Source of the DNA: Panopea generosa
Lineage: Eukaryota; Mollusca; Bivalvia; Adapedonta; Hiatellidae
Direction of reading: 5' to 3'
Length of the DNA: 64,000 nucleotides
Assembly (NCBI GenBank): GCA_029582155.1
Contig: CM055895.1
Location: 53,349,250 to 53,413,249, forward strand
Part shown: one piece after another, positions 12,110 through 62,075 of the stretch
How positions within the stretch are numbered: the stretch's first letter is position 1
How the letters are laid out: each line of letters begins with the position of its first letter
Program-made: the position numbers and the translations under genes
The notes under the pieces: model-generated
What the model was told of the DNA's origin: nothing
Databases searched by the model: none
Seen by the model: only the letters and a program-made list of their open reading frames with translations

Positions 12110-13016
12110 GTTCATGATATTTTTTTTGTCTTTGTGTGTTTCAATGATGATGGTGAACACACATTCAAAGTTTCATTCATATCCAATGAGTGGCTGCATA
12201 GATATCTTACCTGATGAAAAACTTTAACCTGAAAAATTAAGTCGAAAAAGGGCAATAACTGTGCCAAAATGCAACCCAGAGTTATGGTTCTTGTCTCTGT
12301 GTGTTTCATTGATGATAGTGAACACACATGTGAAGGTTCATTCACATCCAATGAGAGGTTGCATAGATATCTTAAACTTAAACGCAACTAAACTCAAAGT
12401 TTAACCTGGGTGCCTAAGTCCAAAAAGGGCCATAACTGTGTCAAAAAGCAATCCAAAGTTATGGTTCTTGTCTCTGTGTGTTCCAGTGATGAGGTGAACA
12501 CACATGTGAAGTTTCATTCACATCCAATGAGTGTTTGCATAGATATCTTAAACTTAAACGCAACTAAACGTAAAGTTTAACCTTGGTGTCTAAGTCCAAA
12601 AAAGGCCATAACTGTGCCAAAATGCAATCCAGAGTTATGGTTCTTATTTCTGTGTGTTCCATTGATGATGGTGAACACACATGTGAAGTTGCATTCACAT
12701 CCAATGAATGGTTGCATAGATATCTTAAACTTAAACGCAACTAAACGCAAAGTTTAACCTGGGTGTCTAAGTCCAAAAAGGGCCATAACTGTGTCAAAAT
12801 GCAATCCAGAGTTATGGTTCTTATCTCTGTGTGTTCCATTGATGATGGTGAACACACATGGAAAGTTCCATTGACATCCAATGAATGGTTGCATAGATAA
12901 CTTAAATGCAAAAGTTTAACCTGGTTGTCTATAGACGACGCCGACGCCGACGCCGACGACAACGCTGGGGTCATGACAATAGCTCTCCTTGGACTTCGTC
13001 CCGGCGAGCTAAAATT
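12110..13016 (+). mobile_element. non-autonomous element: ~176-bp tandem core with hairpin tail
   Basis: Four and a half monomers of about 176 bp (GTTATGGTTCTT at 12281, 12458, 12633 and 12811) are followed at about 12930 by a GACGCCGACGCC run. A compact tail then reads ATAGCTCTCCTTGGAC / GTCCCGGCGAGCTAAAA, an imperfect hairpin closed by a GGAC-TTC-GTCC stem-loop. The same monomer theme ('GGCCATAACTGTGTC ... GAGTTATGGTTCTT') and a structured tail recur in the elements near 17, 43 and 61.5 kb. It does not code for protein; the 91- and 96-codon minus frames are repeat-derived. Confidence 0.8.
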
Positions 13017-13019
13017 ATG

Positions 13020-13240
13020 CAACAAGACCATAACTGATACCCAGGAACGAGAACATATAACAACATCAAGCCGGTTAGAAGTTCTAACCTATACATAAGA
13101 AAGTTGTGAATTATGCAAACAAATGTTATGTTTTTTAAGTATAGGTAAGAAGTTATATGGTATTTTTTACGCCAGTAAAAAATTCCATGTAACTTTTAAC
13201 CGGCTTAGATGTTGTTCTACGTTCTCGTATGGTCTTGTTG
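13020..13240. mobile_element. foldback MITE, ~50-bp inverted termini
   Basis: The left end CAACAAGACCATA...CGAGAACATATAACAACATC..AAGCCGGTTA is the reverse complement of the right end (TAACCGGCTTAGATGTTGTT then CGTTCTCGTATGGTCTTGTTG), except for about 16 extra bases near the left tip. The centre is AT-rich. There is no coding capacity. It lies directly after the tail of the 12.1-13.0 kb element. Confidence 0.8.
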
Positions 13241-13544
13241 TTTAATTTTTATTTATAGAATTAAGCCCGTGAAAGAGACAGACACAAATACAGGCATGTG
13301 CGCGTTAGCACTGGTTGTTTCAAAATAAATGTTTCGCGCGATCACTGAAGCTGAGTGTGAGTTTGAGGGTTTGCGATCATTTGGTAGTTGCATGCGGCAG
13401 CGAATCGACGTTGCCTGATACTATGGACTGTTGTGAAATTCGAAAGAAAAATGTACGCTACAGGTAATATTTTTGCTACTCACTTTATAAATATTTCATG
13501 AAAATTAATATGGAGATGTAGATGAACCTATAGGTACTATTAAG

Positions 13545-13722
13545 TGGAATGCGTGGTCCAGTGGTAGAGCATAAGATCCATGATCGGACGGTCGTGGGTT
13601 CGATCCCCCGTCACGATTATGTGTGTTAGACACTGTCTTTACGCATATGCTTAATACTGATTCTGCCAAGGAAGACTTCGAGTGTTAATTGTTTCACAAT
13701 CGAAGTAAAATAAATAAGTTAT
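13545..13722 (+). mobile_element. tRNA-derived SINE (family 1), plus-strand copy
   Basis: A-box-like GCGTGGTCCAGTGGTAGAGC at 13549 and B box GGGTTCGATCCC at about 13597. The body runs GACACTGTCTTTACGCATAT, CTGCCAAGGAAGACTTCGAG and ends in AAGTAAAATAAATAAG. It matches the reverse complement of 10687-10868. It is not a functional tRNA: it lacks a paired acceptor stem and a sensible anticodon arm. Confidence 0.85.
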
Positions 13723-13734
13723 ATAGTTTAGCAT

Positions 13735-14034
13735 GGTCATCAAATAGCACCGAAGGTTCATCTTCTTACAGAGACGGCGTTCGTCATTGTTCTGTGATTT
13801 TTCATGAAATATTAATTTTAAGTAAGTAATCTGAAAAAATATTACCAGAAACGGGCACTTTTCCTTCGACTTTTAGCATAAGGTCACATGAATTTACCAC
13901 CGTAGTTCAAAATAGAACGTTCTATTTTTCATGGAATATAAAATTGAAATTTCTATGTGAGATGGAATGTTCTATTTTGAAAAAAAAAAGAGCGATTTCA
14001 TTTGCATTTGAAAGTAGGACAACATCTTAAACTT
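13735..14034 (-). repeat. 300-bp dispersed repeat, right copy of the inverted pair
   Basis: Reverse-complement partner of 10209-10510. Its right part also carries the GGAATGTTCTATTTTGAAAA / AAAGTAGGACAACATCTT arm seen in the 9970-10290 foldback element. Confidence 0.85.
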
Positions 14035-14113
14035 TATTAAAAAACATGTATGTTAGCAAACATTTTTATTGACATAAACTATAGGTTACTGTCGTATTGC
14101 ATATTTTATAGTA

Positions 14114-14621
14114 CAGTAGAACTTCATTGACTCGAACACGGATGGCTGGAACACCACATATAGCTCGAACCACTTATCTGGTCCCGAACACGGATGGCTG
14201 GAACACCACATATAGCTCGAACCACTTATCTGGTCCCGGCCGAACACGGACGGCTGGAACACCACATATAGCTCGAACCACTTATCTGGTCCTGGCCGAA
14301 CACGGATGGCTGGAACACCACATATAGCTCGAACCACTTATCTGGTCCTGGCCGAACACGGATGGCTGGAACACCACATATAGCTCGAACCACTTATCTG
14401 GTCCTGGCCGAACACGGATGGCTGGAACACCACATATAGCTCGATCCACTTATCTGGTTCCGAACACGGATGGCTTGAACACCACATATAGCTCGAACCT
14501 CTTATCCGGTCCCGAACATTTCCTATTTCGATGTATATACTTGTATGTATGTATGATGCTGAACAATACTTGGCTGGAACAGCCCATAACTATTTTGTCC
14601 AGTCCCATTGCAGTTCTACTG
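14114..14621. mobile_element. pogo/Tigger-like MITE with internal 52/56-bp tandem repeats
   Basis: The termini are inverted: CAGTAGAACT at the left (after a TA) and AGTTCTACTG at the right. CAGTNGAAC-type ends are typical of pogo/Tigger elements. Inside are seven copies of a 52- or 56-bp unit (GAACACGGATGGCTGGAACA...CTCGAACCACTTATCTGGTC). The 4-bp difference is the presence or absence of GGCC-type bases at the junction. No transposase is encoded. The short frames across it (14086-14337, 14127-14327) are repeat-derived. Confidence 0.75.
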
Positions 14622-16805: not shown

Positions 16806-16811
16806 TAGTTA

Positions 16812-17890
16812 AAATATAAAATATGTCTAATGGTAGAACGTCCGCCTTGCATGCGAAATGTCGTAGGTTCGATCCTCGGCCTGGTCATATACTGAAGATT
16901 TGAAAAAATGGTAGTAGGCGCTTCCTCGCTTCAGCATTCAGAGGATCAGTTAAAATCTGGTGAGCCCTGGTGTCAGTATCGTCTGACTTGGAGGGTAGAA
17001 TATAACCTTTTACCCTACAATATGACCATCAAGTTAGGAATATAATATATTACACACTACCTCAGAGTATTGTAAGCACGAACATTCATACCAAGTTCCA
17101 GTCAAATAACTGCAAAGAATGCACACTTATGAACAACTTGCACCAAAACTTTAAAACGAAGTTAAATACAAATTATAACCTTTTCACCCTGCAAAATGAT
17201 ATTGATTTTTTATTAAGGAGCCTGATAGGTTACATACTGCCTCAGAGTATAAAGCGCACACTTATACCAAGTTCCAGTCATATAAATGCAAGAAATGAAT
17301 ACTTATGAACAACTAGCACCAAAACTTTAACGCAAAGTTTAATACAAAATATAACCTTTACACCCGGCAAAATGGCCTTGATTTTGAATTTAGGAGCCCG
17401 ATAAGAGTATAAGCACGCACATTATAAATATCAAATTCCAGGCATATAACTGCAAGCAATGCACATTTATGAACTTCTTGCACCAAAACTTTAATGCAAA
17501 GTTTAAGACAAATTATAACCTTTTTGCGCTGCAATATTATGACATTGATTTTTAATCTAGGACCCCAATAGGTTACATACCGCCTCAGAGTATAAGCACG
17601 CACATCTATACCAAATTCCAGTCATATAACTGCAAACAATGCATACTTATGAACAACTTAAACCAAAACTTTAATGCAAAGTTTAATACAAAATATAAAC
17701 TTTCAACCGGCAAAATGACCTTGATTTTGAATTTAAACCCGATAGGTTACATACTACCTCAGAGTATTAGCATGCACACTTACGCCAAGTTACATGCATA
17801 TAACTGCAAGCCAGACACATTTATGAGCAACTTGCACCAAAAGGTTAACGCAGGCAGCACACAGACGCAGACACCGGGCCTGTTTTTATA
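16812..17890 (+). mobile_element. tRNA-Ala-like head joined to a ~177-bp tandem-core element
   Basis: At 16822-16880 a tRNA-like head has an A box (TCTAATGGTAGAACG), a TTGCATG loop as in tRNA-Ala(UGC), and a B box (AGGTTCGATCC). A SINE-like body follows to about 17010. Then come about five monomers of about 177 bp, marked by CTCAGAGTAT at 17061, 17241, 17583 and 17758, with one copy near 17402 shortened by ~16 bp. The element ends in GCAGACGCAGACACCGGGCCTG, which resembles the GACGCCGACGCC tail of the 12.1 kb element. The head may instead be a separate SINE that landed next to the array. Confidence 0.65.
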
Positions 17891-17894
17891 GAAT

Positions 17895-20800
17895 AGTCGA
17901 GTAAAACGGCCAAGTAGGTATTGATACCCATCATCCTTACCTCTTACACTGTATATATGCCCTCCATAAAACACAAGAAGATAATGGGCCAAACACATCC
18001 TTAAATCAGCCCCTGCCTAAGAATTAACACAATATTATAATAATAGACCAATACTCTAGGACATCTATTTTTAAATGTTTAGTGCACTATATGGAGTAGT
18101 TTAATGTATAATTCTATGCCATGACCAGTGACATACCTGTTTATATGTCTCTGCTATGACACATGTGACTTGTTGACAGTATAGCCTTCAGTTAACATCA
18201 GTTATGTTACTCGATTGCACGGTTTTTTACAGAGTTGGGGAAAATAATGTTTGAAATCGACCCTTTTTATGCGAGATGATTATTTAAGTGGCATAATCAG
18301 TACATATAAAGATATTTATTTTATAAAAAAAATGAATGACAAACAGTTCCGTGAATTTCCATTACCTTCCATAGTTTTATATTAGCCGATACCTCTCATA
18401 CACATGAATAAATTGTTTTTTAAATATATATATTTACTGGTCAGTAATTCTAATATGCAAATTATCAGCTTTGCTGACGGAAATTATGAAGTTTCTTATT
18501 CAATCGTATTTACTCGGTCAATTCCTTCACCCTTCTGTATCAGAATGGTCGCTAGATATGTGCAGAGTTATAAATGCATATAAAATCATTTCTGTTGGAA
18601 TCTAATTTTTCGGATACGAGACGCCGTTACTGGGGAAGTGTAGGAAACATATCAATATTGCTAGCAAAATGAACTTAAATAAAACATAATTCTTGTTAAT
18701 GCAAAAATGTACAAAAAAAAAACAATACCTTATTGTCAGCATGGCATTGTATTGCCAGAACAGCCAACAGCCGTCGGATAGCTGACAACCGTTTGTTTCT
18801 GCTGTGCCTGTTCATGGCATATATCATCACAATGGTAGCAGTCTTGTTCCCGGCAGATCTAATAATTGAATATAAGGCATTGTACAGAAATGGCACATTT
18901 ATCTCCAGTTCATGTAGGGCCTTACTTAATAGGTTCTCTCTGATGGTAAAAAGGGGATTTCTGTGACAAAACGCTCGTGTTGTGTACGACACTTGACCGC
19001 GATAATGCAACCTGAACTTACGGTCCTTTGAATCCTCGAGTGGTGTCGACCTGTTGACTGATGGAGACTTTCGATCTTTCTTTAAACTCGATATTTAAAG
19101 AAACATGAAGAAGTTAATAATAGTTAAGGGTATGGTTATGGTTAATATTGTGCCTGTTAACAAGCATTACCATGACAAGTGCTATGTTAATCCGTATATC
19201 TGTTTTTTTTACCCGGTTAAATTTGCCTTAGTTTAGAAGTCTCGTTTCAAAGCTCCGTTGGATAGATGTTCTATTAACAGTAACAAGTTTCAAAAACCGA
19301 AGGACGTCCTGAATTAGTTCCACAGTTAAGTTCCGAATCGCTAATTATTTTTATTCAGTTTGGATATATAAACCAGCTAGCTTGGAACAATTATCGGCAC
19401 TTTCTAATTTTGTCATTGTATATTTCATGAGTTACTTATTCTTTCCGGTTTTATGTATGTAAGAAGACGATAGTCAACTCAGGCAAAAAAATAATCTGAT
19501 TTAAATGAGTGTGTGTAATTAGATACGTTAGATTTAATACTAAGTGATACAAAAGTATAAAACACCAGACTTTATTTTTTATAAAGCAGTGCTATATAGC
19601 TAGTTATCTTATCTGTTTACATCTAGCTGTGCTAGTTCTATGTTAACACAGTACTGCTATCTGTAACTCTAACTATATACACACCCTCGTATGAGTATCA
19701 AATTCACCCGATCCCATGGATCGGAAATATGGTCTTTAAGTACATTGAATTCAACTTGGAGATTGATCATTCCTTGAAATACATTATATAACTTGGAGAT
19801 GGAATATTTAAATAGATTATCAACTTGAAGATTGACCTTTTAAACAATAAAAGTAAATTTAAGGACATAACTATTTATTTTAAATATACACTTTTACATC
19901 GTTTTATGGATTTTTTTAAAATATAAGCAGTAATGAAAACTTGGGTATTGCATTTTATATGCATAACTATGTAGATCATCAGGGAGATTCTTCAACTGTC
20001 TTTGAAATACTAAACATTTTACTTGGAGATTTAATTTTATTTGAAATATAAAATATCTATCATCTATGCAGATTACACTATGAAATATTATTTTACAGTT
20101 GGACATTTTAAACTGACAAATAAAAAAAATAATATCCTATCGTATATTTTTTGTTGTACCCGTACAACAAACAACGTTTTTAAATAGTAACCTTTACTAA
20201 ATCACTTTCCATCAATATGCTTATTTAATGTTCCAGGCTATATTTGACACAAACTTTATTATTTTATTTCTACTTGCCCAGGTTTCAATACTTAAAGAAT
20301 CTTGATTTAACGTGAAATCATTGCACACGTTTTAAATGTTGTACATTTGTCCGCTGTCTGTCTGTTAAAGAAGTACGCCTAGTTGCCTACTCAACAATCG
20401 CGATTCTTTCCTTTGAAAAGGAAACTTTATTACCATTTTGGTTATATCCAGTATTTGGGGTTCGTCAAAGATTTTGGTGTTCATTTATTCATATCTCTAA
20501 TGTTCGAGGTGTTATTTTAAATATTTTATAAAATAAAGACTTATAGTCTAATCACTTGGATAAAATATGCTATACATATTGATTATTTAATATTAATTAT
20601 CAATACAACACTTGCATTTTTGCTTTATTTTATTTATATTGTATAAAAATATGTGCAGAATTATCCTCTGTTAACTTTCTTTCACCTGAACATTACGTGA
20701 ATGATGAAAAACAACACAACTTAGAGAAAGGTACGTATCGTAATAATTATATCTTTGTAGGTTAAATTACTAACACTGCCAGTCGTAAATAATGTAATTG

Positions 20801-21880: not shown

Positions 21881-22193
21881 TAATTTTGGGAGTGGGTGCT
21901 TTTACACTTCTAATATTATTTTATAATTATAATTTCTATATGAAACATAATTTTAAGAACCCCAGAAAACTTTACTTATTCCTAGTTGTATTGACTGTAA
22001 ATTTAGAAAAGTGTTATTGCTTAAATACGGATACACGCAATCTGCCGTCTATGATGCAGGTATTCCTCTTTTTGTGTTGGGTAATGTTTTTACATTTTGA
22101 TATTATTTCTACAATAACAATATTAAACAAGTACCTCAAAAACTATTCAAATATTAGCAGTTTGAGTATCTTGGGTGCAATATCAAACAATTA

Positions 22194-22275: not shown

Positions 22276-22279
22276 ATTT

Positions 22280-26448: not shown

Positions 26449-26459
26449 TATCATTTATA

Positions 26460-26738
26460 GCCGGGCCCGATTAGCTCAGTCTGACTATCAATCCAGGGGT
26501 CGTGAGTTTGAATCCCCCAAACGGCAACAGTCTCCGTGATGATTGATATACGACATTGTGTCTCATTATCATTCGTCTCTCACCACTGATTCAAGTGGGA
26601 AAGTTATCAGTTACTTGCGGAGATGGGGTGTGCTTGAGTACTGGTTAATCCCAGGAAACAGTGGTTAGGCTAACTGATCGTCTGTTAGCCCTTGATGGCA
26701 TAAAAACGACGCTAAATATTCAATCAATCAATCAATTC
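26460..26738 (+). mobile_element. tRNA-derived SINE with V-type core and (AATC)n tail; 10-bp target duplication
   Basis: The tRNA-like head has an A box (TTAGCTCAGTCTGACTATC) and a B box (GTGAGTTTGAATCC). A central core contains GGGAAAGTTATCAGTTACTTGCGGAGATGG, and the 3' end AACGACGCTAAATATTC is followed by (AATC)n. The element is flanked by a direct duplication ATCATTTATA (26450-26459 and 26739-26748), the footprint of LINE-type integration. Related copies are at 35487-35660 (+) and 60862-61150 (-). The architecture fits the molluscan V-SINE class (RUDI-like), but that name is from memory and untested. Confidence 0.9.
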
Positions 26739-27210: not shown

Positions 27211-27211
27211 C

Positions 27212-35248: not shown

Positions 35249-35486
35249 GTTTGCCATTTAACCTGAACATTGTTGAACCGCATTAAACAGTTCTTCAAAT
35301 ACATGTAAAAAAAAAAAGAAGGAAATAATAGATATTTGTCCATGTACACTATTTAAATCACAACAAATTTATAAAAATAGTTTTCATTAATGAATACTGT
35401 AAAGAAGAAATCCAAGGAGAATCATTGTAGTTAGCTAAATCATGAAGGTAAAGTCATCTTATTATCATTGCCCAATGTCATCAAAC

Positions 35487-35662
35487 CTGATTAGCTCAGT
35501 CGGTAACATGTCTGACAATCAATCCAGGGGTTGTGAGTTTGAATCCCAGTCTGGCCACAGTCTCTGTGATGATTGATATAAGACATTGCGTTTCATCATT
35601 ATTCATCTCTCACTGCTGATTCAAATGAGAAAGTTATTAGTTACTTGCGGAGATGGGTTGGA
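35487..35662 (+). mobile_element. V-core SINE, 3' end missing
   Basis: A box TTAGCTCAGTCGGTAACATG, B box GTGAGTTTGAATCC and core GAGAAAGTTATTAGTTACTTGCGGAGATGG match the SINE at 26.46 kb. The 3' third and AATC tail are absent, because the copy runs directly into the tandem-core element at 35.66 kb. The A box is closer to a real tRNA than in the other copies, but the rest does not form a tRNA gene. Confidence 0.85.
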
Positions 35663-36460
35663 GTTTTTTTGACAATATTTTGAATCTGTGCGAGATTTTG
35701 TGCCTGGTCTGTAACTTAAAAAGCACATGGCTCAATTCATCAGATTGACATGATGACAAGTCTCGCATAGACCCACACCCATACCTCAACTGGGCAGGTC
35801 ACAGTTTGAGTGTGTTTGACAACACTTTGAGTTTGTGTGTCATACATGGATGGATTTTAAAAACACTTGGCTCAATCCATCAACATGACATGATGAAGAG
35901 TAGCATATAAGACCCACATCCTTTCCTCAAAGGTCAAGCTCACACTTACAATTTGTTTGATATTTTGTGTCTGGTCTGTAACTTTGTCTTTAACTTGGCT
36001 CAATTGATCAATATGACATTTTGACGTGTCATACGTAAGACTCACATCCATTCCTCAAAGGTCAAGGTCACACTTTAACTTTGAGTCTGTTTGAGATTTC
36101 AAGTCAGGTCTGTAACTTTGAATGGGTTTCTAAAATATTTGGCTCAATTGATCAACTTGGCATGACGACGTGTCGACTGCAAGACCCAGAACCTTACCAC
36201 AAAGGTCAAGGTCACACTTTGTGACCTCCATTTACCTGTAGAAATACCCAGACATTTACATCAGATGTCAAGGTTACACAAAAGTCAAGGTCACACTTTA
36301 ATGTAAAAACAACAACATGAAATTGCGCATCTAGTCTGAAAAGTTAATGCATTACTCTTGATATTCATTGATACATTTAAATTGCTACCTATTATAAAAT
36401 ATAATTGTTATTTTCACCAACCATTTAGGGGGCATGTGACACTTACCAGTGACATTTCTT
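35663..36460 (+). mobile_element. tandem-core element (130-140-bp monomers), second copy at 44010-45742
   Basis: About five monomers with the phrase TGTCTGGTCTGTAACTTTG, then TTGGCTCAATTNATCAACATG and CCTCAAAGGTCAAGGTCACA. They are followed by a tail (ATGAAATTGC...CTACCTATTATAAAATATA...TATTTTCACCAACCATTTAG) that is shared with the element at 44-45.7 kb. No protein is encoded. The tail ends about 25 bp before the splice acceptor of the ASB terminal exon. Confidence 0.8.
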
Positions 36461-36485
36461 GTTAATTATCTTTTATCTTTTTCAG

Positions 36486-42875: not shown

Positions 42876-42984
42876 CTTTTGAGATATGTTGTCAGATGAA
42901 ATACTGTGTAACATGAAAGTGAAGCTTCAGGTAGTTCACCAAACATTTCAATTCGCATTGGTTTTGAGGTTATGTCCATGTTTA

Positions 42985-43575
42985 GCTCTGCTGGCCAAAG
43001 GCAAGAACGGCTTATGTGATAGCTTGTTGTCCGTCATCCCCCCTCTGTGAGCAGCACTTTCTGAAACCACTAGGCCAAATAAACTCAAACTTCACATGGA
43101 TGTTTCTATTGCACAGGAGACTATATAGAAGATTTTTTTTTTTAATCTGAAATTCAAGATGGCCACCATTATTAAAAATAGTCCAAAACTTATGACTCAC
43201 ACAGTTATTATGTAACCATAATATATTGAATGAGTTCTTGAACTGGCCAATTGGATAAATATTGTCAGAGTTATGGCCCTTTAATTAATTGTCAAAAATT
43301 GTATGTTTTTGATGTTGTGCGCACTCTAGCACTTACAGTTTATATATGATCTTCATTAAACTTACGCAGTTGTTATGTAACCATAATATTTTGAACAAGT
43401 TTTTTAATTACCCAAATTGGATAATTAATGTTGGGTGTTATGATCGTTGAATCGACAAAAATTGCATTATATTAATTTATGTACACTCTAGTACCTGCAA
43501 AAATTGCCGTCTTTGGCATTGTCTCTTCTGCCACAGGTGAGCGATTAAAGGGCATTTTGGCCCTCTTGTTTTTAA
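42985..43575 (+). mobile_element. tandem-core element with palindromic GGCC tail, copy A
   Basis: The head CTCTGCTGGCCAAAGGCAAG is followed by two or more monomers containing GTTATTATGTAACCATAATAT, TTGAACTGGCCAAT and GAGTTATGGCCCTTTAA. The tail CAGGTGAGCGATTAAAGGGC-ATTTT-GGCCCTCTTGTTTTT has an AGGGC/GCCCT palindrome. The element at 61340-62075 shares monomers and tail. Confidence 0.8.
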
Positions 43576-43579: not shown

Positions 43580-44005
43580 AATAGTTTTGCAATACCTATC
43601 AATTTTCAGAAAATTAATATGTAAACTAATTGCCCATGATGTGGTTCAAACCAACAATTCTAAAATGACACAGAATTACCTAGGTCTGATATCAGCATCA
43701 AATTTTCAGTAGTGATTTCTAAAATACTGACTCTTTAACACATGGTAGGACAAATAAATCACTGCAATACAAAGCCCTGAAAAAATAAGAAAAAGAAAAG
43801 TAAAGTTTAATTTCTACCTCCATCTGTAGGTCCGGAGTACTCAAGGGAGATAATAGTGGTGTGAGTCCCCAACAGATTTTACAAATATTTATTTTGTCAT
43901 AATAACCAACTACAGTTATATTAGATTTGTACACATGGAGTTAAAAATGACCCCTCCCTAAAAGTTCAATTAGGGGACACATGTCATTATAATAAACATT
44001 CAATT
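43580..44005. other. no gene seen
   Basis: Unique-looking AT-rich sequence between two dispersed elements. The short frames have no domain. Confidence 0.5.
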
Positions 44006-44009
44006 TTAT

Positions 44010-45742
44010 GGTGGTGTATAGTAATCACACTGTCCGTCCATCCATCCATCAATTCGTCCATCCGTCTGATATTTTGTGTCCGGCCTGTAATTTTTTCATA
44101 TAAAGATGGATTTTATAAATGCTTCCTACAAATGATCAAAATAACATGACAATGTGTCACGCGTAACACCTAGACTCCCACTTCAAAGGTTAAGGTCACA
44201 ATTTAACTTTGCCAACACTTTAAGTCTGTTTAAGATTTCGTGTCCGATCTGTAACTTTGTCATCTATGGATAAATATCAAAATCACTTGGCTCAATTCAT
44301 TATCATAACATGATGACAAGTTGCACATAAGACTACACCCATACCTCAACCATGCAGGTCACAATTTGAGTTTGTTTGACAATACTTGAGTCTTTGTGAG
44401 ATTTCGTGTCCGGCCTTTAACTTTGTTATGCACAGATGGATTTTATAAATACTTGCTACAAATGATCAACATGTCTTGTGTAACACCGAGACACCAACTT
44501 CAAACGTCTAGGACATACTTAACTTTGTTTGACAACATTTTCATTCTGTTTGAGATTTTGTGTCTGGTCTGTAACTTTGTTACCTATGGATAAATTTCAA
44601 ACATGGCTCAATTCGTCAGCATGACGTGATGACAAGTCACGCAAAAGACCCACACCCGTACCTCACCAGTGCAAGTCACACTTTGAGTGTGTTTGACTAC
44701 ATTTTCATTCTGTTTGAGGTTTTGTGTCTGGTCTGTAACTTTGTTACCTATGGATAAATTTAAAAAACACACGGCTCAATTTGTCAGCATGACATGATGA
44801 CAAGTCACGCATAAGACCCACATCGGTACCTCACCAGTGCAAGTCACACTTTGAGTGTGTTTGACAACATTTTCAGTCTGTTTGAGATTTTGTGTCTGGT
44901 CTGTAACTCTGTTACCTATGGATAAATTTCAAAAATACACAGCTCAATTCGTCAGCATGACGTGATGGCAAGTCAAGCATAAGACCCACACCCGTGTCTC
45001 ACCAGTGCAAGTTACATTTTGAGTCTGTGTGAGATTTCATGTCAAGTCTGTAACTTCGTCATACACGGATGGATTTCAAAAGCACTTGGCTCAATAGATC
45101 AACATGACATGTTGAAGTACTGCACGAAAGAACCAGAAACTTTCCTCAAAGGTCAAAGTCACACTTTCAATTTGTTTGATATTTCGTGTCTGGACATTAC
45201 TTTGTCTTACATGGAGAGGTTTAACTTGACTCAATAAATTAAAATGATGTTATGACGTGTCACACGTAAGACTCACACCCATACCTCAAAGGTCAAGGTC
45301 AAACATTGCGTTTGTTTCACAACACTTTGAGTCTGTTTAAGATTTCAAGTCCAATCTGTAAATTGGTCATATATGGATGGATTTCAAAAACACTTGGCTC
45401 AATTAATCAATTGATAGACATGACATGAATGACCTATCCCTGAAAGGTCAAGGTCACATTTTCAGTTTGTTATTTCATGTTGGGTCTGTAACTTTGTCTT
45501 ACATGGAGAGATTTTAAAATATCTTTACACAAGTGATCAGCATGTCTTGTTATGATGATGTGTCACCTGCACTTACCTCTACTAATACCCAGACCGTTAC
45601 ATCAGATGTCAATGTCACACTTCAATGTAAAAATCATGAAATTGCATGTCTTAATCTGAAACTTTAGTCCCAATACTCTTGAACCCCCTACCTATTATAA
45701 AATATACTGTTATTTTCACAGACCATTTGGGACATTTCTTTT
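44010..45742 (+). mobile_element. tandem-core element (~150-165-bp monomers), larger copy
   Basis: The head TGGTGGTGTATAGTAATCAC is followed by a (GTCCATCC)n-like run, then about ten monomers, marked by T(C/T)TGTGTC(C/T)GG(C/T)CTGTAACTTTG, with TGGCTCAATTCGTCAGCATGAC. The tail is the one seen at 36.3 kb (CTACCTATTATAAAATATA, TATTTTCACAGACCATTTGGG). It is the same family as 35663-36460 with twice as many monomers, so array length varies between copies. Confidence 0.85.
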
Positions 45743-47855: not shown

Positions 47856-47856
47856 A

Positions 47857-49793: not shown

Positions 49794-51355
49794 TATACCC
49801 CCGACAAACGAAGTTTTGAGGGGGTATATTGGAGTCACCCTGAGGTCGGTCTGTCGGTCGGTCGGTCTGTCTGTTGCAATTTTCCTTGTCCGGAGCAGCA
49901 CTTGAAAAGTACTGGATGGAATTTCATCAAACTTCATACAATGGTAGAATATAATGAGAGGAAGTGCAGTGTACAAGAAACATAACTCTATTCTTGCTAA
50001 TTACAGAGTTATTGCCCTTTGATATTTTTTCTTGTCCGGATCATAACTTGAAAAGTACCGGATGGAATTTCATCAAGCTTCATACAATGGTAGAATATAA
50101 TGAGAGGAAGTGCAGTGTACAGGAAACATAACTCTATTCTTGCTAATTACAGAGTTATTGCCCTTTGATACTTTTTCTTGTCCGGAGCATAACTTGAAAA
50201 GTACTGGATGGAATTTCTTCAAGCTTCATACAATGGTAGAATATAATGAGAGGAAGTGTAGTGTACAGGAAACATAACTCTATTCTTGCTAATTACAGAG
50301 TTATTGCCCTTTGATATATTTCCCTTGTCCAGAGCATTACTTTTAAAGTACTGGATGGAATTTCATCAAACTTCATACAATGGTAAAATATAATGACAGG
50401 AAGTGCAGTGTACAAGAAACATAACTCTATTCTTGCTAATTACAGAGTTATTGCCCTTTGATATATTTCCCTTGTCCAGAGCATTACTTTTAAAGTACTG
50501 GATGGAATTTCATCAAACTTCATACAACGGTAAAATATAATGACAGGAAGTGCAGTGTACAAGAAACATAACTCTATTCTTGCTTATTACAGAGTTATTG
50601 CCCTTTGATAAATTTCCCTTGTCTGGAGTATTACTTTTACAGTACTGGATGGAATTTCATCAAACTTTATACAATGGTAGAATATAATGAGAGGAAGTGC
50701 AGTGTACAAGAAACATAACTCTATTCTTGCTAATTACAGAGTTATTGCCCTTTGATATTTTTTCTTGTCCGGAGCATAACTTGAAAAGTACCTGATGGAA
50801 TTTCATCAAGCTTCATACAATGGTAGAATATAATGAGAGGAAGTGCAGTGTACAAGAAACATAACTCTATTCTTGCTAATTACAAAGTTATTGCCCTTTG
50901 ATATATTTCCCTTGTCCGGAGCATTACTTTTAAAGTACTGGATGGAATTTCATCAAACTTCATACAGTGGTAGAATATAATGACAGGAAGTGCATTGTAC
51001 AGGGAACATAACTCTATTCTTGCTAATTACAGAGTTATCGCCCTTTGATATATTTCCCTTGTCCGGAGCATTACTTTTAAAGTACTGGATGGAATTTCAT
51101 CAAACTTCATACAATGGTAGAATATAATGACAGGAAGTGCAGTGTACAAGAAACATAACTCTATTCTTGCTAATTACAGAGTTATTGCCCTTTGATATAT
51201 TTCCCTTGTCTGGTGCAGTACTTTTAAAGTACTTTTAAAGCCATCAGTGATAACAGTTTAATAAAGTTCATGAAAGAACCAAGTTGATGAATACATGGAG
51301 TTCGAGCAGAGCAGGTTCGATATTGTATTCCTAGTGCTCTTGTTTGTTTCTTATC
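49794..51355 (+). mobile_element. tandem-core element, nine ~146-bp monomers
   Basis: The head TATACCCCCGACAAACGAAG-TTTTGAGGGGGTATATTGG forms an inverted pair and is followed by (GGTCGGTCTGTC)n. The monomers then carry CATAACTCTATTCTTGCTAA, ACAGAGTTATTGCCCTTTGA, TTGTCCGGAGCA and CTGGATGGAATTTCATCAAA, with starts at 49981, 50127, 50273, 50420, 50567, 50714, 50860, 51007 and 51154. The array ends inside a shortened monomer at about 51240, and the tail ends CTAGTGCTCTTGTTTG. The monomers are very alike, suggesting recent expansion or conversion. No protein is encoded. Confidence 0.88.
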
Positions 51356-51359
51356 AATA

Positions 51360-52510
51360 AAATTGTTGTCCCTCAACATAACTCGAAAAAGTATAAAATT
51401 TATTGATTGCCATGAAAGCTTGTACACTGCACAATAATTAAAAAGACCGTTTTTAATTTTAACAAAACCATAAAAAAATTAACAATACAAAAAATTCAAT
51501 CCATAACATTCTCTTTTATTAAGAATTTTTTTTTGTCTGGAGCATAACTTTAATTTTTTATTTGCGGACAAAATGCATTGAGTGGACAAAAACACCAGCA
51601 TATACCGCTCTTTTGTGTTTGTGTTTTTTCTCCATCCAAAAATTGATGGAAGTAATGCACATTTATCTAAAAAAATCGATAGAAAATTGGTCACCAGCCA
51701 CTTATCTTTGAACATGTCACTGTGAATCTAAAATATTAATTAAATTACAAATTTTATTATTTTAAAGGGACACATCCCAATTTTAAATAGATTATATTGG
51801 CATATTACCGTCAATTCCCTGTCCTAAATACACACGACCAGCATGAAGATACACTTATAACTTAGAAATATACGCATCTAAAGTGTCTAATTGCATAACC
51901 TCTTTATTACAAACAATGGGTTTCTGGAGTCACATTTTTGTTTTTGTTTACATTTGCCATTTTCAACGAACCGCTTTCGGGTTTCCGATCAATCATTGGA
52001 TAACATCGTGAAGACTCGTTCACGATCACGTTTTCGAGGCTTTGTTCAGGAAGTTGACGGAGTTCAATGTAATTGAATACTTTATTGCGGGACATATTAA
52101 AGTTTTGGCCAATATTCAATTACTGTTAATTTGATAACTTATAAGTAAATAAAGGTTATACATCAATACATAAGCATTATTTTGTGCACACTGCATACAG
52201 GAAAAGTCTGGATTACCAGTGTGTTTGTGTTACTTGCCAATATAATCCCTTTAATACATTTTCACTTAAAGCAATTTGTAAAATTGCTTAGGCCAAAATC
52301 ATATATCCGTTTCTGGTTAACCTGTAAAAAATAGTGTATACCATGTATGATTGTCTTTTCTTTTTTTTCACTTTCAAGGTACTAGAAATGTTCAGAGCAA
52401 GCCGGTCATTGTTTGCAGTTGTATGTTGACCAAGTTATATTACTAAGATAGGTATATTAAAGATTCACCGTGCTGTTCTGAACAACAATAATAACCATTT
52501 GTTCTGGGCA
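51360..52510. other. no gene seen
   Basis: AT-rich. Short frames on both strands (51479-51715, 51891-52119) overlap antisense to each other and lack domains. Confidence 0.5.
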
Positions 52511-52511
52511 G

Positions 52512-55261
52512 TATATCCGTCTCTGGGCAGCCAAGTATACAAACACCAGAATACATAAAAACTTTAACATTTATAACACCAGAATATATAAAAACTGGAA
52601 CATCTTCTACATCAAAATACAAAAAAACTGGAACAACTTCTACACCAGAAAACATAAAAACTGGAACATCTTCTACACCAGAATACATAAAAAAACTGAA
52701 CATCTACTACACCAGAATACATAAAAACTGGAACATTTATAATGCCAGAATACACGAAAATGGGGAAATCTACTTCATCAAAATACATTAAAACTGTAAC
52801 ATCGACTACATCAGAATACATTAAAACTGGAACATCCAGTACACCAGAAAACATTAAAACTGGAACATCTACTACACAAGTATGCATTAAAACTGAAACA
52901 TCTTCTACACCAGAATACATAAAACTTGGAACATCTTCTACACCAGTATACATAAGAACTGGAACATCTATAACACCAGTATGAATAAAAATTGGAACAT
53001 CTATAACACAATAATGCATAACAACTGGAAAATCTATAACACTAGTATATATTAAAACTGGAACATGTAATACACCAGAATCGATAACAACTGGAACATC
53101 TATAATACCACAATACATAAAAACTTGAACATCTACACCAGAAAACATTAAAACTGGAACATCTACTACACCATTATACATTAAAACTGGAACATCTATA
53201 ATACCAATATGCATAAAAAAACCTGGAACATCTACTACACCAGAATACATAAAAACTGGAACATCTTCTACCCCAAAATACATTAAACTACACAAGAATG
53301 CATAACAACTGGAACATCTATAACACTAGTATACAATAAAACTTGAATATCTAATACACCAGAATCAATAACAACTGGAACATATATAACACCACAATAC
53401 ATAAAAACTGAAACATCTTCTACATCAGAATACATTAAAAGTGGAACATTTACTACACCAGAAAACATTAAAACTGGAACATCTATAATACCAGTATACA
53501 TAAAAACTGGAACATCTACTACACCAGAGTACATAAAAACTGAACATCTATAACACCAGAGTATATTAAAACAGGAACATCTACTACACCAAAATACCTT
53601 AAAACTGGAACATCTTTAATGCTGGTGTACATTAAAACTGGAACATCAATAACACCAGTATATATTAAAACTGGAACACCTATAACACCAGTATACATTA
53701 TACTGGAACTTCTAATATACCAGAATGTTTTAAAACTGGAGCATCTGTAACACCAGTTTACATTACAACTGGAACATCAATAACACCAGTATACATAAAA
53801 ACTGGAACATCTAATATACCAGTATACATTAAAACTGGAACATCTAATATACCAGTATGCATTAAAACTGGAACATTTAATATACCAGTATGCATTAAAA
53901 CTGGAACATTTAATACACAAGAATATATTAAAACTGGTGCATCTATAACACTAGCATACATTAAAACTGAAACATCTACTACACCAGAATACATAAAAAC
54001 TAAAATCTATAACACCAGTGTACATTACAGCTAAGCATTTTATACACCAAAATGTATTAAAACCGGTACATCTAATACAACAGTTTGCAATACAACTGGA
54101 ACATCTTCTATACCAGAATGTATTAAAACTGGTCAATCTTATCCACAAATATAGATTAAAACTGGAACATACAGTGCATCAGAATACATTAAAACTAGAA
54201 CATCTTTAACACCAGAATACATTAAAATGGAAAATTTTCTACAGCAGAGTACATTACAATTAAAACATCCTCTACACCATAATACATTAAAAAAACTGGA
54301 ACATGTAATACACCAGTATACAAATAAACTGGAACATCTATAACACCAGTATATATTAAAACTGGAACATCTGTAACACCAGAATGCATAACAAATAGGA
54401 CATCTACTACACCAAAATGCATAAAACTGGAAAATGTACTTCATCAGAATACATAAAAACTAGAATATCTTCTACACCAGAATACATAAAGACTAGATCA
54501 TTTAATACACCAGTGTACATTAAAACTGGAACCGCTAATACATCAGTGTACATACAAGCTTGAACACGAGAATGAATATAATATTGGAACATCTACTACA
54601 CAAGAATACATTACAAGTTGGAGATATATAACAGCAGTGAACATAAAAACTAAAACTTCTTATACATCAGAATACATAAAACTGGAACATCTACTTCACT
54701 AGTATACTTTAAAACTCGAACAGCTATAACACCAGTTTACATTAAAACTGAAGCATCTATAACACCAATGTACATTAAAAGTGGAACATTTAAACTACCA
54801 GAATACATTAAAAGTGGAACATGTAATACACTAGAATACATTAAAACTGGAACATTTATAACACCAGAATACATTAAAACTCGGACATCTTTAAACCAGA
54901 ATACATTAAAATTGGAATAGTTACTCAACCAGTGTGCATGAAACTGGAACATCTAAAACACCAGAATACAATAAAAGTGGAACATGTACTACATCAGCAT
55001 ACATAAAAACTGGAACATCTATAACATGAGAATACATTAAAACTGGAACATTTTCTACACCAGAATACATTAAAACTTGAACATCTACAACACCAGTATA
55101 CATAAAAACTGGAACATCTGTAATATCAGAATACATTAAAACAGGAAAATCTTCTACACAAGAATACATTAAAACTGCCACATCTACTTCACCAGTATAC
55201 ATTTAAACTGAATCATCTACTACACCAGTGTACATAAAAACTGGAACATCTACTACGCCAG
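52512..55261. repeat. 33-bp minisatellite, block 1 (GGAACATC type, diverged)
   Basis: Units close to ACACCAGAATACATAAAAACTGGAACATCTACT with many substitutions and 1-3-bp indels. The unit is 11 codons long. Where indels are absent, a plus frame reads TPEYIKTGTST and a minus frame reads DVPVLMYSGVV, so frames up to 227 codons appear (minus 52612-53295). Interrupting stops and frequent frame changes argue against a protein. Confidence 0.95.
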
Positions 55262-55510
55262 GGTTCATATTCACCTACCTTTCTTGAGAATATCTTTATA
55301 CTTAAGATTGAAAATCCAAATTTCAACCTTAGATATCTAGTTTACCATGAAAGATAGAATAATTGTGAGAGATTATTTAACTATATATTAGGTGTTCCTA
55401 CATCCTTGCAAATTTTTACCTCAATAAATGGTCTCTAAGTATGTTTTTCAAAATTCATTTTTTAGTTCAAGTCTAAGAATATTCTTAAGAATGGTTGGTG
55501 AATACCACCC
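55262..55510 (-). mobile_element. ~249-bp MITE in the 33-bp array, orientation 1
   Basis: The ends GGTTCATATTCACC and GGTGAATACCACC are inverted, continuing inward as TTCTTGAGAATATC and AATATTCTTAAGAATGG. Its interior is the reverse complement of the interior of the MITE at 58007-58254 (for example ATAATTGTGAGAG here against CTCACAATTATTC there). It sits after ...CGCCAG, and the array resumes at TAGTATAC. Confidence 0.9.
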
Positions 55511-58006
55511 TAGTATACATTAAAACTGGAACAGCTAAAACATCAGCATACATTAAAACTGGAATAGCTAATACACCAGAATGTATAAAACTGGAACATC
55601 TAATACACCAGTATACATAAAAAATGGAACATCTTCTACACCAGATTACATAAAATCTAGAACATCTCATACACCAGAATACATTAAAACTGGAACATCT
55701 ATAACACCAGATGCATAAAAACTAGAACATCTACTTCACCAGTATACACTAAAATTGGAACATCTATAACACCAGAATACATAAAAACTGGAATAGCTAC
55801 TTTACTAGAATACATTAAAACTGGAACATCTATAAGACCAGTATACATAAAAACTTGAACATCTTCTACACCAGAATACATTAAAACTGGAATAGCTACT
55901 TCTCCAGTGAACATAAAACTGGAACATCTAAAACACAAGAATACAATGAAACTGGAATAGCTACATCTCCAGTGTACATAAAACTGGAAAATCTAAAACA
56001 CCAGAATACATTAAAAGTGGAACATGTAATACACAAGTATATATTAAAACCGAAGCATCTATAACACCAGATAACTTTTAACTGGAATAGCTAATACACC
56101 AGAATATATTAACACTGGAACATCTATAACACCATAATACATTAAAACTGGAACATCTTCTACACCAGAATACATAAAACTGGAACTTCTTTTACACCAG
56201 AATACATTGAAACTTGAACATCAGTATACATAAAAACTGGAACATCTTTAACACCAATATACATTAGAAAATGAACAGCTAATACACCAGTATACATAAA
56301 AACTGGAACATCTATAACATCAGAACACATTAAAACTGGAACATCTTCTACACCAGAATACATTGAAACTAGAACATCTATAACACCAGTATACATAAAA
56401 CCTGGAACATCTATAAAATCAGAACACATTAAAACTTAAAAATGTATTCAACAGAATACTTTAAAAATGGAACATCTACAACACCAGAATACATTAAAAC
56501 TTGAACATCTTCTACACCAGAATATATAAAAACTGGATATTTTATAACACCAGAATATATATAAAACTGGAACATCAAATACACCAGAATACATTAAAAC
56601 TGGAACATCATATTCACCAATTAACATACACTGGAACATCTACTCCACCAGTATACATTAAAACTGGGATATCTGCTACACCAAAGTACATTAAAACTTG
56701 AACATCTACTACACCAGAACACTTTAAAATAGGAACAGTTAATACACCAGAATATATATAAAACTGGAACATCTCCTACACACACATACATAAAAACTTG
56801 AACATTTATAACACCAGTATACATTAAAACTGGAGCATCTATAACACCATTATACATTAAAACTAGGGCAATCTATAACATCATTATACAATAAAACTGG
56901 AGCATCTATAACACCAGTATACAATAAAACTGGAGCATCTATAACACCAGTATGCATTAAAACTGGAACATCTGTAACACCAGTATACATTAAATCTGGA
57001 GCGTTTATAACACCAGTATACAATAAAAACTGGCGCATCTATAACACCAGTATACAATAAAAATGGAGCATCTATAACCCCAGTATGCATTAAAACTGAA
57101 GCATCTGTAACACCAGTATACATTAAAACTGGGCATCTATAAGACCAATATAAAATTAAACTGGAGCATCTATAACACCAGTGAACATAAAAACTGGAGT
57201 ATCTATAACACCAATTTACAATAAAACTGGAGCATCTGTAACATCAGTATATATTAAAAGTGGAGCATCTGTAACACCAGTATGCATTAAAACTGGAGCA
57301 TCTGTAATACCAGTATACAATAAAACTGGAGCATCTATAATACCAATATACAATAAAACTGGAGCATCTGTAACATCAGTATACATTAAAACTGGAGCAT
57401 CTATAATACCAGTATACAATAAAACTGGAGCATCTATAATACCAGTATACAATAAAACTGGAGCATCTGTAACATCAGTATACAATAAAACTGGAGCATC
57501 TGTAACATCAGTATACAATAAAACTGGAGCATCTGTAACACCAGTATACATTGAAACTGGAGCATCTATAATACCAATATACAATAAAACTGGAGCATCT
57601 GTAACACCAGTTTACATTAAAACTGGAGCATCTATAATACCAGTATACAATAAAACTGGAGCATCTGTAACACCAATATACAATAAAACTGGAGCATCTG
57701 TAACATCAGTATACAATAAAACTGGAGCATCTGTAACACCAGTATACATTAAAACTGGAGCATCTATAATACCAGTATACAAAAAAACTGGAGCATCTGT
57801 AACACCAGTGTACATAAAAACTGGAGTATCTATAACACCAATATACAATAAAACTGGAGCATCTGTAACACCAGTATACATTAAAACTGGAGCATCTATA
57901 AAACCAGTATAAATTAAAACTGGAGCATCTGTAACACCAGTATACAATTAAACTGGAGCATCTATAACACCAGTTTACAATAAAACTGGAGCATCTAAAA
58001 CACCAG
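55511..58006. repeat. 33-bp minisatellite, block 2, grading to a homogeneous GGAGCATC type
   Basis: Up to about 56800 the units are GGAACATC-like and diverged. From about 56830 they become homogeneous ACACCAGTATACAATAAAACTGGAGCATCTRTA, including a 22-unit uninterrupted run at 57181-57912. That run is open in the plus frame (KTGASVTPVYI, 243 codons) and in two minus frames (111-122 codons, DAPVLLYTGVT). Confidence 0.96.
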
Positions 58007-58254
58007 GGTTGGTATTCACTAGCCATTCTCAAGAATGTTCTTAGGCTTGAACACAAGAATCAATTTTGAAAACCCCATTTAGAGACAATTATTTGAGACC
58101 AAAATTTGCATGCATGTAGGGACACCTGATATATAATCAAATACATTCTCACAATTATTCTATCTGTCATGGTACACTAGGTATCTAGAGTTGAAATTTG
58201 GATTTTCAAGCTCAAGTCTAAGAATATTCTTAAGAATGGTTGGTGAATATGACC
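58007..58254 (+). mobile_element. ~248-bp MITE in the 33-bp array, orientation 2
   Basis: The ends GGTTGGTATTCACTAGCCAT and ATGGTTGGTGAATATGACC are inverted over about 40 bp. It belongs to the same family as 55262-55510 but is flipped. It also follows ...ACACCAG, and the array resumes at TCTGTATGCATT. Confidence 0.9.
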
Positions 58255-59078
58255 TCTGTATGCATTAAAACTGGAGCATCTATAACACCAGTATGCATTA
58301 AACTGGAGCATCTATAACCCAAGTATGCATTATAACTGGAGCATCTGTACACCAGTATACATTAAAACTGGAGCATCTATAAGACCAATATAAAATTAAA
58401 CTGGAGCATCTATAACACCAGTATACATTCAAACTGGAGCTTCTGTATCACCAGTATACATTAAAACTAGAGCATCTATAACACCAGTATACATTAAAAC
58501 TGGAGCATCTATAACACCAGTATACATTAAAACTGGAGCATCTATAACACCAGTATACATTTAAACTGGCGCATCTATAACACCAGTATACATTAAAACT
58601 GGAGCATCTGTATCACCAGTAAACATTAAAGTTGGAGCATCTATAACACCAGTATACATTAAAACTAGAGCATCTATAACACCAGTATACATTAAAACTG
58701 GAGCATCTATAACACCAGTATACATTAAAACTGGAGCGTCTATACCACCAGTATGTATTAAAACTGGAGTGTGTGTATCACCAGTATACATTAAAACTGA
58801 AGCATCTATAACACCAGTATACAATAAAACTGGCGCATCTATAACACCAGTATACATTAAAACTAGAGCATCTGTATCACCAGTATACATTAAAACTGGA
58901 GCATCTATAACACCAGTGTACATTAAAACTGGAGTATCTGTATCACCAGTATACATTAAAACTAGACCATCTATAACACCAGTGTACATAAAAACTGGAG
59001 CATCTATAACATCAGTTTATTAAAACTGGTGCATCTATACCACCAGTATGTATTAAAAAAACTATATCTAGTATACAT
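58255..59078. repeat. 33-bp minisatellite, block 3 (homogeneous GGAGCATC type)
   Basis: Continues the homogeneous unit (ACACCAGTATACATTAAAACTGGAGCATCTATA) to about 59075, where it decays into unique sequence. The minus frame 58561-58989 (142 codons) and plus frame 58769-59023 are repeat-derived. Confidence 0.96.
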
Positions 59079-59079
59079 T

Positions 59080-60153: not shown

Positions 60154-60154
60154 A

Positions 60155-60725
60155 TGGCATAACTAATGTCTTCCTTACAAACAAGCAGTCCTCAAACTAT
60201 TATTATATCTACTAAAGGTTATCATGTTGAATTATAAATACTGGCCTGGAAGTTTAGATTATCTATTAGTGAAATTTAGTATTCTGCCAACAGCAGACAT
60301 TGATATTTGTATTTTGACATTTACATTATGAAATGTATCCCTGATATTATATAATAACGTAATGAAATGTGCATAATTTTAGTATTCATATCAAATAATT
60401 TGGTTCATGACACAAAAATTGCCTGGCTTTTAAAGGGCAAACATAAACAGTTGTAATACAGATATTATCATGAAATGCTTCCAAGTCTCAGATCTTTACA
60501 ACTTCCAATACTGTAGTTTATGTTCTGCTTTACAAATATGTTGGTTTCATGAAATACAATTTTATTTCCCCAAGCAGTGAAACAAAAAGGATTCTAATTT
60601 TGAACATTACCAAATGAGCTCCATGGTAACAAGTGGGGGTTACAAGATATACAAAATAATAGCAACACATGACAGAGTAAAGTTAACCCATTAGTTAAAC
60701 ATTACCCCTCATGATCAGATTCAAT
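60155..60725. other. no gene seen
   Basis: AT-rich sequence with no supported gene or repeat partner. Confidence 0.5.
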
Positions 60726-60729
60726 ATTG

Positions 60730-60746
60730 GCTGGCTGGCTGGCTGG

Positions 60747-60781
<35 letters not shown>

Positions 60782-60803
60782 ACAGACAGACAGACAGACA
60801 GAC
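60730..60803. repeat. (GGCT)n(GGCA)n(GACA)n microsatellite
   Basis: Three successive tetranucleotide tracts that differ by one base step each: about 4 GGCT, 8 GGCA and 6 GACA. Confidence 0.97.
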
Positions 60804-60861
60804 TAATGTTTATTCAGATTACACATACATAGGTTACATTAAATATAAGTACTCAATTATA

Positions 60862-61150
60862 ATTGATTGATTGATTGAATATTTACCATAATTTTTATAC
60901 CATCGGGGGCTAACAGATGATCAGTTAACCTAACCACTGTTTCCCGGGATCCTGGAAGGTTAACCAGTACATGAGCACACCCAATTTCCACAAGTAACTT
61001 ATAACTTTCCCACCTGAATCAGAAGTGAAACATGACTGATAATAAGACACAATGTCGAATCTCAATCATCACGGACACTATGGCTGGTCAGGGACTCTCG
61101 ACCACTGGATTGATAGTCAGACATGCTACCAACTGAGCTAATTGGGCCCT
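60862..61150 (-). mobile_element. V-core SINE, full-length minus-strand copy
   Basis: Read on the minus strand: AGGGCCCAATTAGCTCAGTTGG (A box), GGTCGAGAGTCCC (weak B box), GTGGGAAAGTTATAAGTTACTTGTGGAAATTGG (core), CGGGAAACAGTGGTTAGGTT, ATCTGTTAGCCCCCGATGGT, then AATATTCAATCAATCAATC at the tail. It is the same family as 26460-26738. No clear target duplication was found. Confidence 0.88.
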
Positions 61151-61339
61151 CGATTACAAATAAAACGAAGATAAATTAGTAAAAGGTAATTTTACAACTA
61201 TCAACCATATTATATAAAATGAATTGAGTATTGCAAATTATTAGATATAAAGTATCACAGAATGTAATTTTAATATTATTGTTTTAGCCAAATCCACTGT
61301 AAAAAAAGTTAATGATCTATCGCAATAAAATATTCTATA

Positions 61340-62075
61340 GAAACTATGATGAACTTACATGGTAGTTGTATAACCATAATATCTCGGACAAGTTCTTAAA
61401 CTGGCAAAATCAGAAATTGATGTCTGAGTTATGACCACTGAATCATTAAAAAATGCATTATTTGACATTGTGTGCATTTTATAACCATAATATCTTGGGC
61501 AAGTTCTTGAACTGGCCAAATCTGATAAATATTATCAGAGTTATGGCCCCTGAATCACCATATATTGCGTTATTTTGTTTGCACTCTAACACCTGCATTT
61601 TTCATTTGATCCTCACCAAACTTATGAAGTTGTTGAACTGGCAAAATCGGTAAATTAATATCTGAGTTATGAGCCTTGAATCATCAAAAATTACATTATC
61701 TGACGTTGTGTGCATTCTAGTACTAGCAGCTTTCACTTGATGTTTACTAAACTTACATACGTGTAGTAGTTATATAACCATAATATCTTGGACAATTTCT
61801 TGAATTGACCAAATCAGAACATTAATGTATAGAGTTATGGCCCTTGAATTGACCAAAATTGCATTATATGAAATTATGTACACTCCAGCACCTGCAGTTT
61901 TTGTTTGATCTTCACAATACTTAGACAGTAATTAAATGTCTATACTATCTCAACTGACCAAATTTAAATGTCTGAGGTATGGCCCTTGCCTTATCAAAAA
62001 TTGCCATCTTTCCCATTGTCTCTTTTGCAACAGGTGAGCGATTTAGGGCAAATCTCGTCCTCTTGTTTTAAGTAA
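61340..62075 (+). mobile_element. tandem-core element with GGTGAGCGAT tail, copy B
   Basis: About five monomers of ~110-165 bp with TATAACCATAATATCTTGG, TTGAACTGGCCAAAT, GAGTTATGGCCCNTGAAT and a TTTGATCTTCAC block. The tail is GCAACAGGTGAGCGATTTAGGGCAAATCTCGTCCTCTTGTTTT. It is the same family as 42985-43575 with more monomers, but the tail palindrome is degraded. Confidence 0.8.

Follow-up and report, generated by a model that had tools for sequence, protein, structure and literature searches.

Background

Non-autonomous Helentrons, named HINEs and including the DINE-1 elements, have been described by Thomas et al. (2014, PMC4067079) as carrying subterminal inverted repeats (subTIRs) set in from the 5' end by a few bases, a palindrome close to the 3' end and, optionally, internal tandem repeats, and as inserting into T-rich targets that they leave unmodified; their autonomous counterparts encode an endonuclease and a GSP motif, the S between G and P being a mark of Helentrons. 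In the Cg_HINE elements of the oyster Crassostrea gigas (PMC7492417), a 5' subTIR and a complementary inverted repeat are followed by a GTCY-type microsatellite, an array of monomers mostly of 140-180 bp, a 3' subTIR and a palindrome, and insertions lie at T-rich sites without a target-site duplication (TSD). The bivalve elements known as Pearl (CvA, CvE and CvG), DTC84 and MgE are likewise described as a head, a short array of core repeats (~160 bp in Pearl) and a tail (PMC7492417, PMC11136912), and rolling-circle elements have a mean content of 5.91% in bivalve genomes (PMC10294476). Here we describe seven elements of this design from a stretch of 64,000 nucleotides of the bivalve Panopea generosa (contig CM055895.1, C2:53349250-53413249; hereafter the window) and assign them, with a probability of about 0.92, to five families of HINEs, that is, of non-autonomous Helentrons with satellite-like tandem cores.

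The initial annotation of the window had proposed several families of non-autonomous mobile elements built on one plan, and this proposal holds. It had also ranked them as an under-described system, which they are not: their plan matches the Cg_HINE scheme as published (PMC7492417), the tandem-core design is already known from oysters, and the present families add to a described kind. The comparison is one of described plan. Two features are unlike the parts of the oyster account drawn on here, namely a monomer box that three families have in common despite their different heads and tails, and a family with a nearly homogeneous 3' end.

Seven elements and their common plan

For each family the genome (1.47 Gb in 39 contigs) was searched with the window copy or a part of it, and the copies retrieved were used to locate the true ends; each search scored its best 40 candidates, so that the samples lean to similar copies and the counts are lower bounds. 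Five families were defined in this way, named here after the positions of their window copies in kilobases: 12.1, 16.8, 35.7/44.0, 43.0/61.3 and 49.8. All of the elements queried are dispersed repeats in the genome (first-look candidates: 7253 for 12.1, 3939 for 16.8, 7666 for 35.7, 6012 for 43.0 and 2693 for 49.8). The plan that they fit begins on the 5' side with a T-run, a hairpin in which a subterminal repeat pairs with its complement, and a GTC-type microsatellite, and continues with monomers of 147-177 bp in varying number; on the 3' side come the corresponding subterminal repeat, a palindrome (supported by energy in two families, see below) and either CTTGTT or CTAGTT. None of the window's listed open reading frames (ORFs) of at least 150 aa overlaps any of the seven, in keeping with elements that lack coding capacity.

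Two of the elements lie on the minus strand and had been read on the forward strand, with the consequence that head and tail were exchanged. The first, at 12121..13014, has its 5' end at 13014 (TTTTAGCTCG), a hairpin head with a GTC-type microsatellite at ~12926-13014 and ~4.5 monomers of 177 bp that run down to 12121; the second, at 16999..17906, starts at ~17906 (TTTTACTCGACTATTC) and holds ~4.6 monomers of 176 bp. On the plus strand, the 49.8 element (49794..51553) opens with TATACCCCC...GGGGGTATA and a GGTC/TGTC run that precede 9.2 monomers of 147 bp, and the 44.0 element (44004..45731) has a partial head with a GTCC run, monomers of ~168 bp and a degenerate tail. The relative of the latter at 35661..36463 is head-less, its array reaching ~36221 and its tail consisting of GGGGGCAT, a weak palindrome and a CTTGTT that ends at 36463. 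The 43.0 element (42976..43570) has ~2 monomers and a tail that reads CACAGGTGAGCG...CTCTTGTT, and its head-less relative at 61352..62067 is an array followed by a tail ending in CTCTTGTT at 62067. Tandem Repeats Finder (TRF) reports cores at 12238-12906 (177 bp), 17088-17842 (176 bp), 44526-45032 (168 bp) and 49879-51233 (147 bp); the 35.7, 43.0 and 61.3 elements have no TRF core, and their internal repeats are visible by self-comparison. By the same comparison 35.7 and 44.0 are 72.5% identical over 559 columns in the best block of the array and 66.5% over 212 in the tail, and 43.0 and 61.3 are 74.8% identical over 274 columns of array and 82.4% over 74 of tail, so the earlier observation that each of these pairs shares a tail holds.

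A head, a tandem core and a tail had been claimed for all seven elements. The plan itself stands, but several heads and tails had been placed wrongly and four of the window copies are incomplete: the 12.1 copy is without a HINE 3' end, the 35.7 and 61.3 copies are without a head, and the 49.8 copy is truncated before the true 3' end of its family, its similarity to other copies ceasing at 51553. The occurrence of CTCTTGTT at 51337-51344, which had been taken as the tail of this copy, was ruled out as the 3' end of 49.8 and is internal to it, since the family runs on to TCTAGTT. The head of the 43.0 element (query 1-248) matches none of the other copies of its family listed, and the element may therefore be a composite.

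Ends of the families

The 5' end of the 12.1 family reads TTTTAGCTCGCC...GGAGAGCTATT with GTC-type repeats, and its 3' end reads GGCGAGCTTTGTTGTCTTCTGACAACTCTTGTT. Of 40 matches listed, 38 begin at query 3-8, placing the 5' end at the T-run, and the other two, namely the source copy and one almost identical to it, begin at query 1. In the 43.0/61.3 family the 5' end approximates TTTTAGCTCACCTGAGC...AGGTGAGCTATT and leads into a GTCC-rich run, and the 3' end is CACAGGTGAGCGATTTAGGGCC....GGCCCTCTTGTT; at the tolerance used, the tail was found in 29 of 30 loci and the head in nine, and an exact CTTGTT closes 22 of 29 tails. Six copies of the 49.8 family with a 5' end that could be read (the window copy and L079-L083) share a T, then TATACCCCC...GGGGGTATA, then the GGTC/TGTC run. 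The 3' end of this family is GGGGGTATTCATCACTACAGTGATAGGTCTAGTT, with L079, L081, L083 and L084 diverging immediately after TCTAGTT; L082 is cut short, and L080, like the window copy, stops before the family end. The best 40 matches to this 3' region are 99-100% identical, which speaks for youth and conservation and not for an exact limit, because the query ends four bases past the family end. Two further 49.8 copies, L091 (C4:50661610-50661900) and L092 (C15:64408530-64408700), have the 3' end twice in direct succession, the second time partly shortened; the junction is identical in both, and they therefore perhaps represent a subfamily with a duplicated 3' end.

The CTTGTT at window 36463 marks the 3' end of the 35.7/44.0 family. 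Among 18 other listed matches that extend past query 800, eight stop exactly there, eight end elsewhere in 822-835, one ends at 816 and one at 841. The two-armed head of this family consists of TATGC with a C-run, then GGGGTGGCATATA, plus GTGTCCGTCC in L085; it is present at two places, L085 and the sequence downstream of the tail of L033, at both of which the two 5' inverted-repeat arms were seen by reading, and is partial in L088-L090 and at 44.0. In the 16.8 family (L085-L087 and the window copy) a T-rich stretch opens the element, together with a form of CTCGCCTATTC...GAATAGG.

A subterminal repeat and a complementary inverted repeat follow the T-run in the 12.1, 43.0, 49.8 and 16.8 families. 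Reading of the ends also finds, in four of the five families, a subterminal repeat at the 3' end that is the complement of its 5' counterpart: GCTCACCTG/CAGGTGAGC in 43.0, GCTCGCC/GGCGAGC in 12.1, ATACCCCC/GGGGGTAT in 49.8, and ATGC with a C-run/GGGGGCAT in 35.7. When the ends were folded as single-stranded DNA and compared with 200 shuffles (some of the folded strings being majority strings of copies), hairpins close behind the T-run were found in the 43.0 (z = -5.96), 12.1 (-5.18), 49.8 (-3.96) and 16.8 (-8.26) families and in a host Helentron, L069 (-6.59), none of the shuffles being as good. The 3' palindrome is supported in 43.0 (z = -3.12, 0/200 shuffles) and 12.1 (z = -2.54, 3/200). The counts of the end motifs in the window are not significant, at five for exact CTCTTGTT (2.62 expected; 12 of 100 shuffles reach five) and 11 for TTTTAGCTC with one mismatch (15.94 expected); the weight of these motifs lies in their placement at element ends and not in their frequency.

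Insertion sites and other classes of repeat

Empty sites were sought with 15 joined-flank constructs (13 distinct, one faulty) compared with the genome stretches collected here. The initial annotation had proposed defining TSDs from such sites; for four insertions of three families, L007 (12.1), L028 (43.0), and L081 and L083 (49.8), the empty sites put the elements in T-runs, and none is duplicated. Three of the joined-flank constructs recovered related uninterrupted sites, two for L028 (at 80% and 75% identity), three for L081 and two for L083 (where the right side is covered by only 11-13 bases), all with T-rich junctions and no duplication. The L007 junction is run through by all 40 genome matches listed, its host sequence being another repeat (1152 first-look candidates); two empty sites that were read give GATGA-TTTTT-GATGG, and the filled site gives GATGA-TTTTT-[AGCTCGC...CTTTTG]-TT-GATGG. 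Across 24 copies of the 43.0 family, truncated ones included, there is no TSD signal, the words at the two edges agreeing with a mean of 4.29 as compared with 4.15 in shuffled pairings (256 of 1000 shuffles reach it).

These sites bear on the possibility that the elements are miniature inverted-repeat transposable elements (MITEs), moved by a cut-and-paste transposase. Inverted repeats do lie close to both ends, and Pearl was first described as a MITE before it was re-categorised as a non-autonomous Helentron (PMC7492417). However, a MITE leaves a TSD of fixed length, and the four empty sites have no duplication; moreover, the repeats here are subterminal and their surroundings asymmetric, since a T-run lies beyond the 5' repeat but a palindrome plus CTTGTT beyond the 3' repeat. 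All of this makes a MITE origin very improbable.

Still less probable is a class of retroelements, resembling short interspersed elements (SINEs) and copied via RNA, which would account for head-less copies and for the tRNA-like blocks that adjoin the 16.8 and 35.7 elements. In the 43.0 family, 16 of 29 copies are indeed without a head but with a tail, in a sample chosen with a tail-rich query. The tRNA-like blocks, however, do not belong to the families. The block at 16826-16998, tried as the head of 16.8, is missing from all 47 other listed matches, which start at or beyond query 220 (window 16999), and the block at 35481-35660, tried as the head of 35.7, has two further copies in the window that adjoin no core, at 26479-26630 and 60978-61142. 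The blocks are separate neighbouring repeats, and from their tRNA-like promoter boxes we take them to be SINEs; the three copies at 26479-26630, 35481-35660 and 60978-61142 are of one repeat, and the block at 16826-16998 is a different one. In the window, Rfam at its gathering threshold gave no match and ARAGORN called no tRNA. Nor do the elements end as a SINE would, having CTTGTT without an A-rich tail, and the missing TSD extends to truncated copies. That they are scattered pieces of satellite moved by recombination is just as improbable, for although the number of monomers is variable (from 3 to 8 boxes among 24 copies) and some copies are without ends, the dispersed copies have termini in common and their empty sites are clean.

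A monomer box common to three families

Phrases common to several families had also been reported, and one of them survives as a box, AGAGTTATKGCCCTT, which is found in a single orientation in the monomers of three of the five families (12.1, 43.0 and 49.8). With up to three mismatches it occurs 31 times in the window where 2.77 are expected (0/100 shuffles reach 31), a count that overstates the independent evidence because the majority of these occurrences are repeated copies inside three arrays. Monomer consensus sequences were compared in HINE orientation, in ten pairs with 300 shuffles each. The three pairs with the box scored 40 (12.1-49.8), 33 (12.1-43.0) and 31 (49.8-43.0), reached by none of the 300 shuffles, as against 18, 22 and 18, respectively, in the reverse orientation. 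The box is absent from the 16.8 and 44.0 monomers in this comparison; 16.8 versus 44.0 (3/300 shuffles) and 12.1 versus 16.8 (6/300) are borderline, and the remaining five pairs are similar at chance level. An exact lone box, AGAGTTATTGCCCTT, stands at window 63423-63437, outside the listed elements, and the repeat around L007 carries GGAGTTATGCCCCTTTTTGGA, a variant of the shared box.

Some otherwise different oyster monomers have two motifs in common (PMC7492417), and a literature search with the letter strings of the box returned no paper on such repeats, judged by title. The simpler explanation of the shared box is that the monomers descend from a common ancestor. That the box is instead a functional cis-element of tandem-core HINEs, and not a relic of one ancestral monomer, seems doubtful to us. 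In its favour, monomers with no other resemblance carry the box pointing the same way with respect to rolling-circle copying; Rep or a host factor could, for example, act there, and copying would then profit from the many boxes that a tandem core provides. Whether the cores of different families gain any function from their common box can now be put to the test.

Host Helentrons and the question of the mobiliser

The initial annotation had left the mobiliser unnamed, and here the class, at least, has an answer. The host genome has 81 matches to Helitron_like_N, as compared with none in 14 control genomes. In one Helentron group, a frame of 2097 aa contains a Herpes_teg_N-like stretch, DUF6570, Helitron_like_N, PIF1 and Exo_endo_phos, and carries the motif GSPHIH. 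The intact representative, L069 (C9:32725600-32735599), groups with L072, L073 and L075 and has copies at L048-L068; in an ungapped comparison over 3.5 kb, L059 shares at least 99% identity with 11 of 16 other copies. At the 5' region of these Helentrons, 38 of 40 listed matches begin at query 3-6, at TTTTTATGCGGATGTGACGTAGTCACAGCTGCATATT. The earlier suggestion of searching autonomous transposons for matching termini brought out, in L069, the same 5' plan of T-run and hairpin as in the window families with a different sequence. Two of the Helentron copies are alike for at least ~17.6 kb from the 5' end and the unit may therefore be very long; the 3' end of L069 was not reached within ~17.6 kb, and a scan of L039-L076 for HINE-type 3' ends gave three weak matches, none at an element end. 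We infer with confidence that the mobiliser belongs to the class of Helentron rolling-circle proteins; the particular partner was not found, and the oyster authors likewise report no specific autonomous partner for Cg_HINE (PMC7492417). In this the present families differ from the HINEs of PMC4067079, which are given there as deletion derivatives of identified Helentrons.

On the assignment to HINEs, a Helentron Rep-helicase supplied in trans would nick at the 5' hairpin head, and a strand would be peeled off and copied by rolling circle up to the 3' end and then joined into a T-run. The core would expand and contract by slippage or unequal exchange, which would explain why copies differ in monomer number.

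Several observations weigh against this assignment. Copying from the 5' end does not predict an excess of head-less copies, yet among the 29 loci of the 43.0 family (L010-L038) only 13 have a head or a head remnant and 16 begin inside the array with the tail kept. Later deletion, recombination or interrupted integration could possibly have produced them, and loss of the 3' end in this family is not judgeable because the sampling query was tail-rich. In the 24 copies analysed, this family ranges from 583 to 1384 bases in length, with 3-8 recognisable boxes each. By energy the 3' palindrome does not significantly exceed chance in 49.8 (z = -1.39, 17/200 shuffles) and 35.7 (z = -0.11, 80/200), and the 3' end of the 16.8 family was seen neither in the window nor in the fetched copies. 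No autonomous partner with matching ends was found for any family; no Helitron_like_N place out of 76 (the 81 matches with each place counted once) falls within 156 kb of the best 40 12.1 heads or the best 40 49.8 tails, and the two shorter relatives of L069 that were read (L077 and L078, 2.5 kb each) have no tandem core.

With the class of an abundant repeat set in this genome settled and the orientation and limits of its members corrected, these elements can be properly annotated. A host with near-identical intact Helentrons and a HINE family whose best 40 3' ends are 99-100% identical is also a good place to seek the mobiliser, and which Helentron moves tandem-core HINEs, a question that the oyster work (PMC7492417) leaves unresolved too, becomes testable here.

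Other features of the window

Some neighbouring features were named by eye. A long fold-back repeat at 13020-13250, possibly a MITE, adjoins the 12.1 element, and a 403-aa ORF at 36559-37770, which resembles ankyrin repeats, lies ~100 bases behind the 35.7 element. ORFs at 6225-9474 resemble parts of a retroelement of Ty3/gypsy type, namely its RNase H and integrase. The window also contains long minisatellite arrays at 1-2579 (units of 65 bp), 30794-32484 (~25 bp), 34103-35240 (67 bp) and 52542-59058 (~33 bp).

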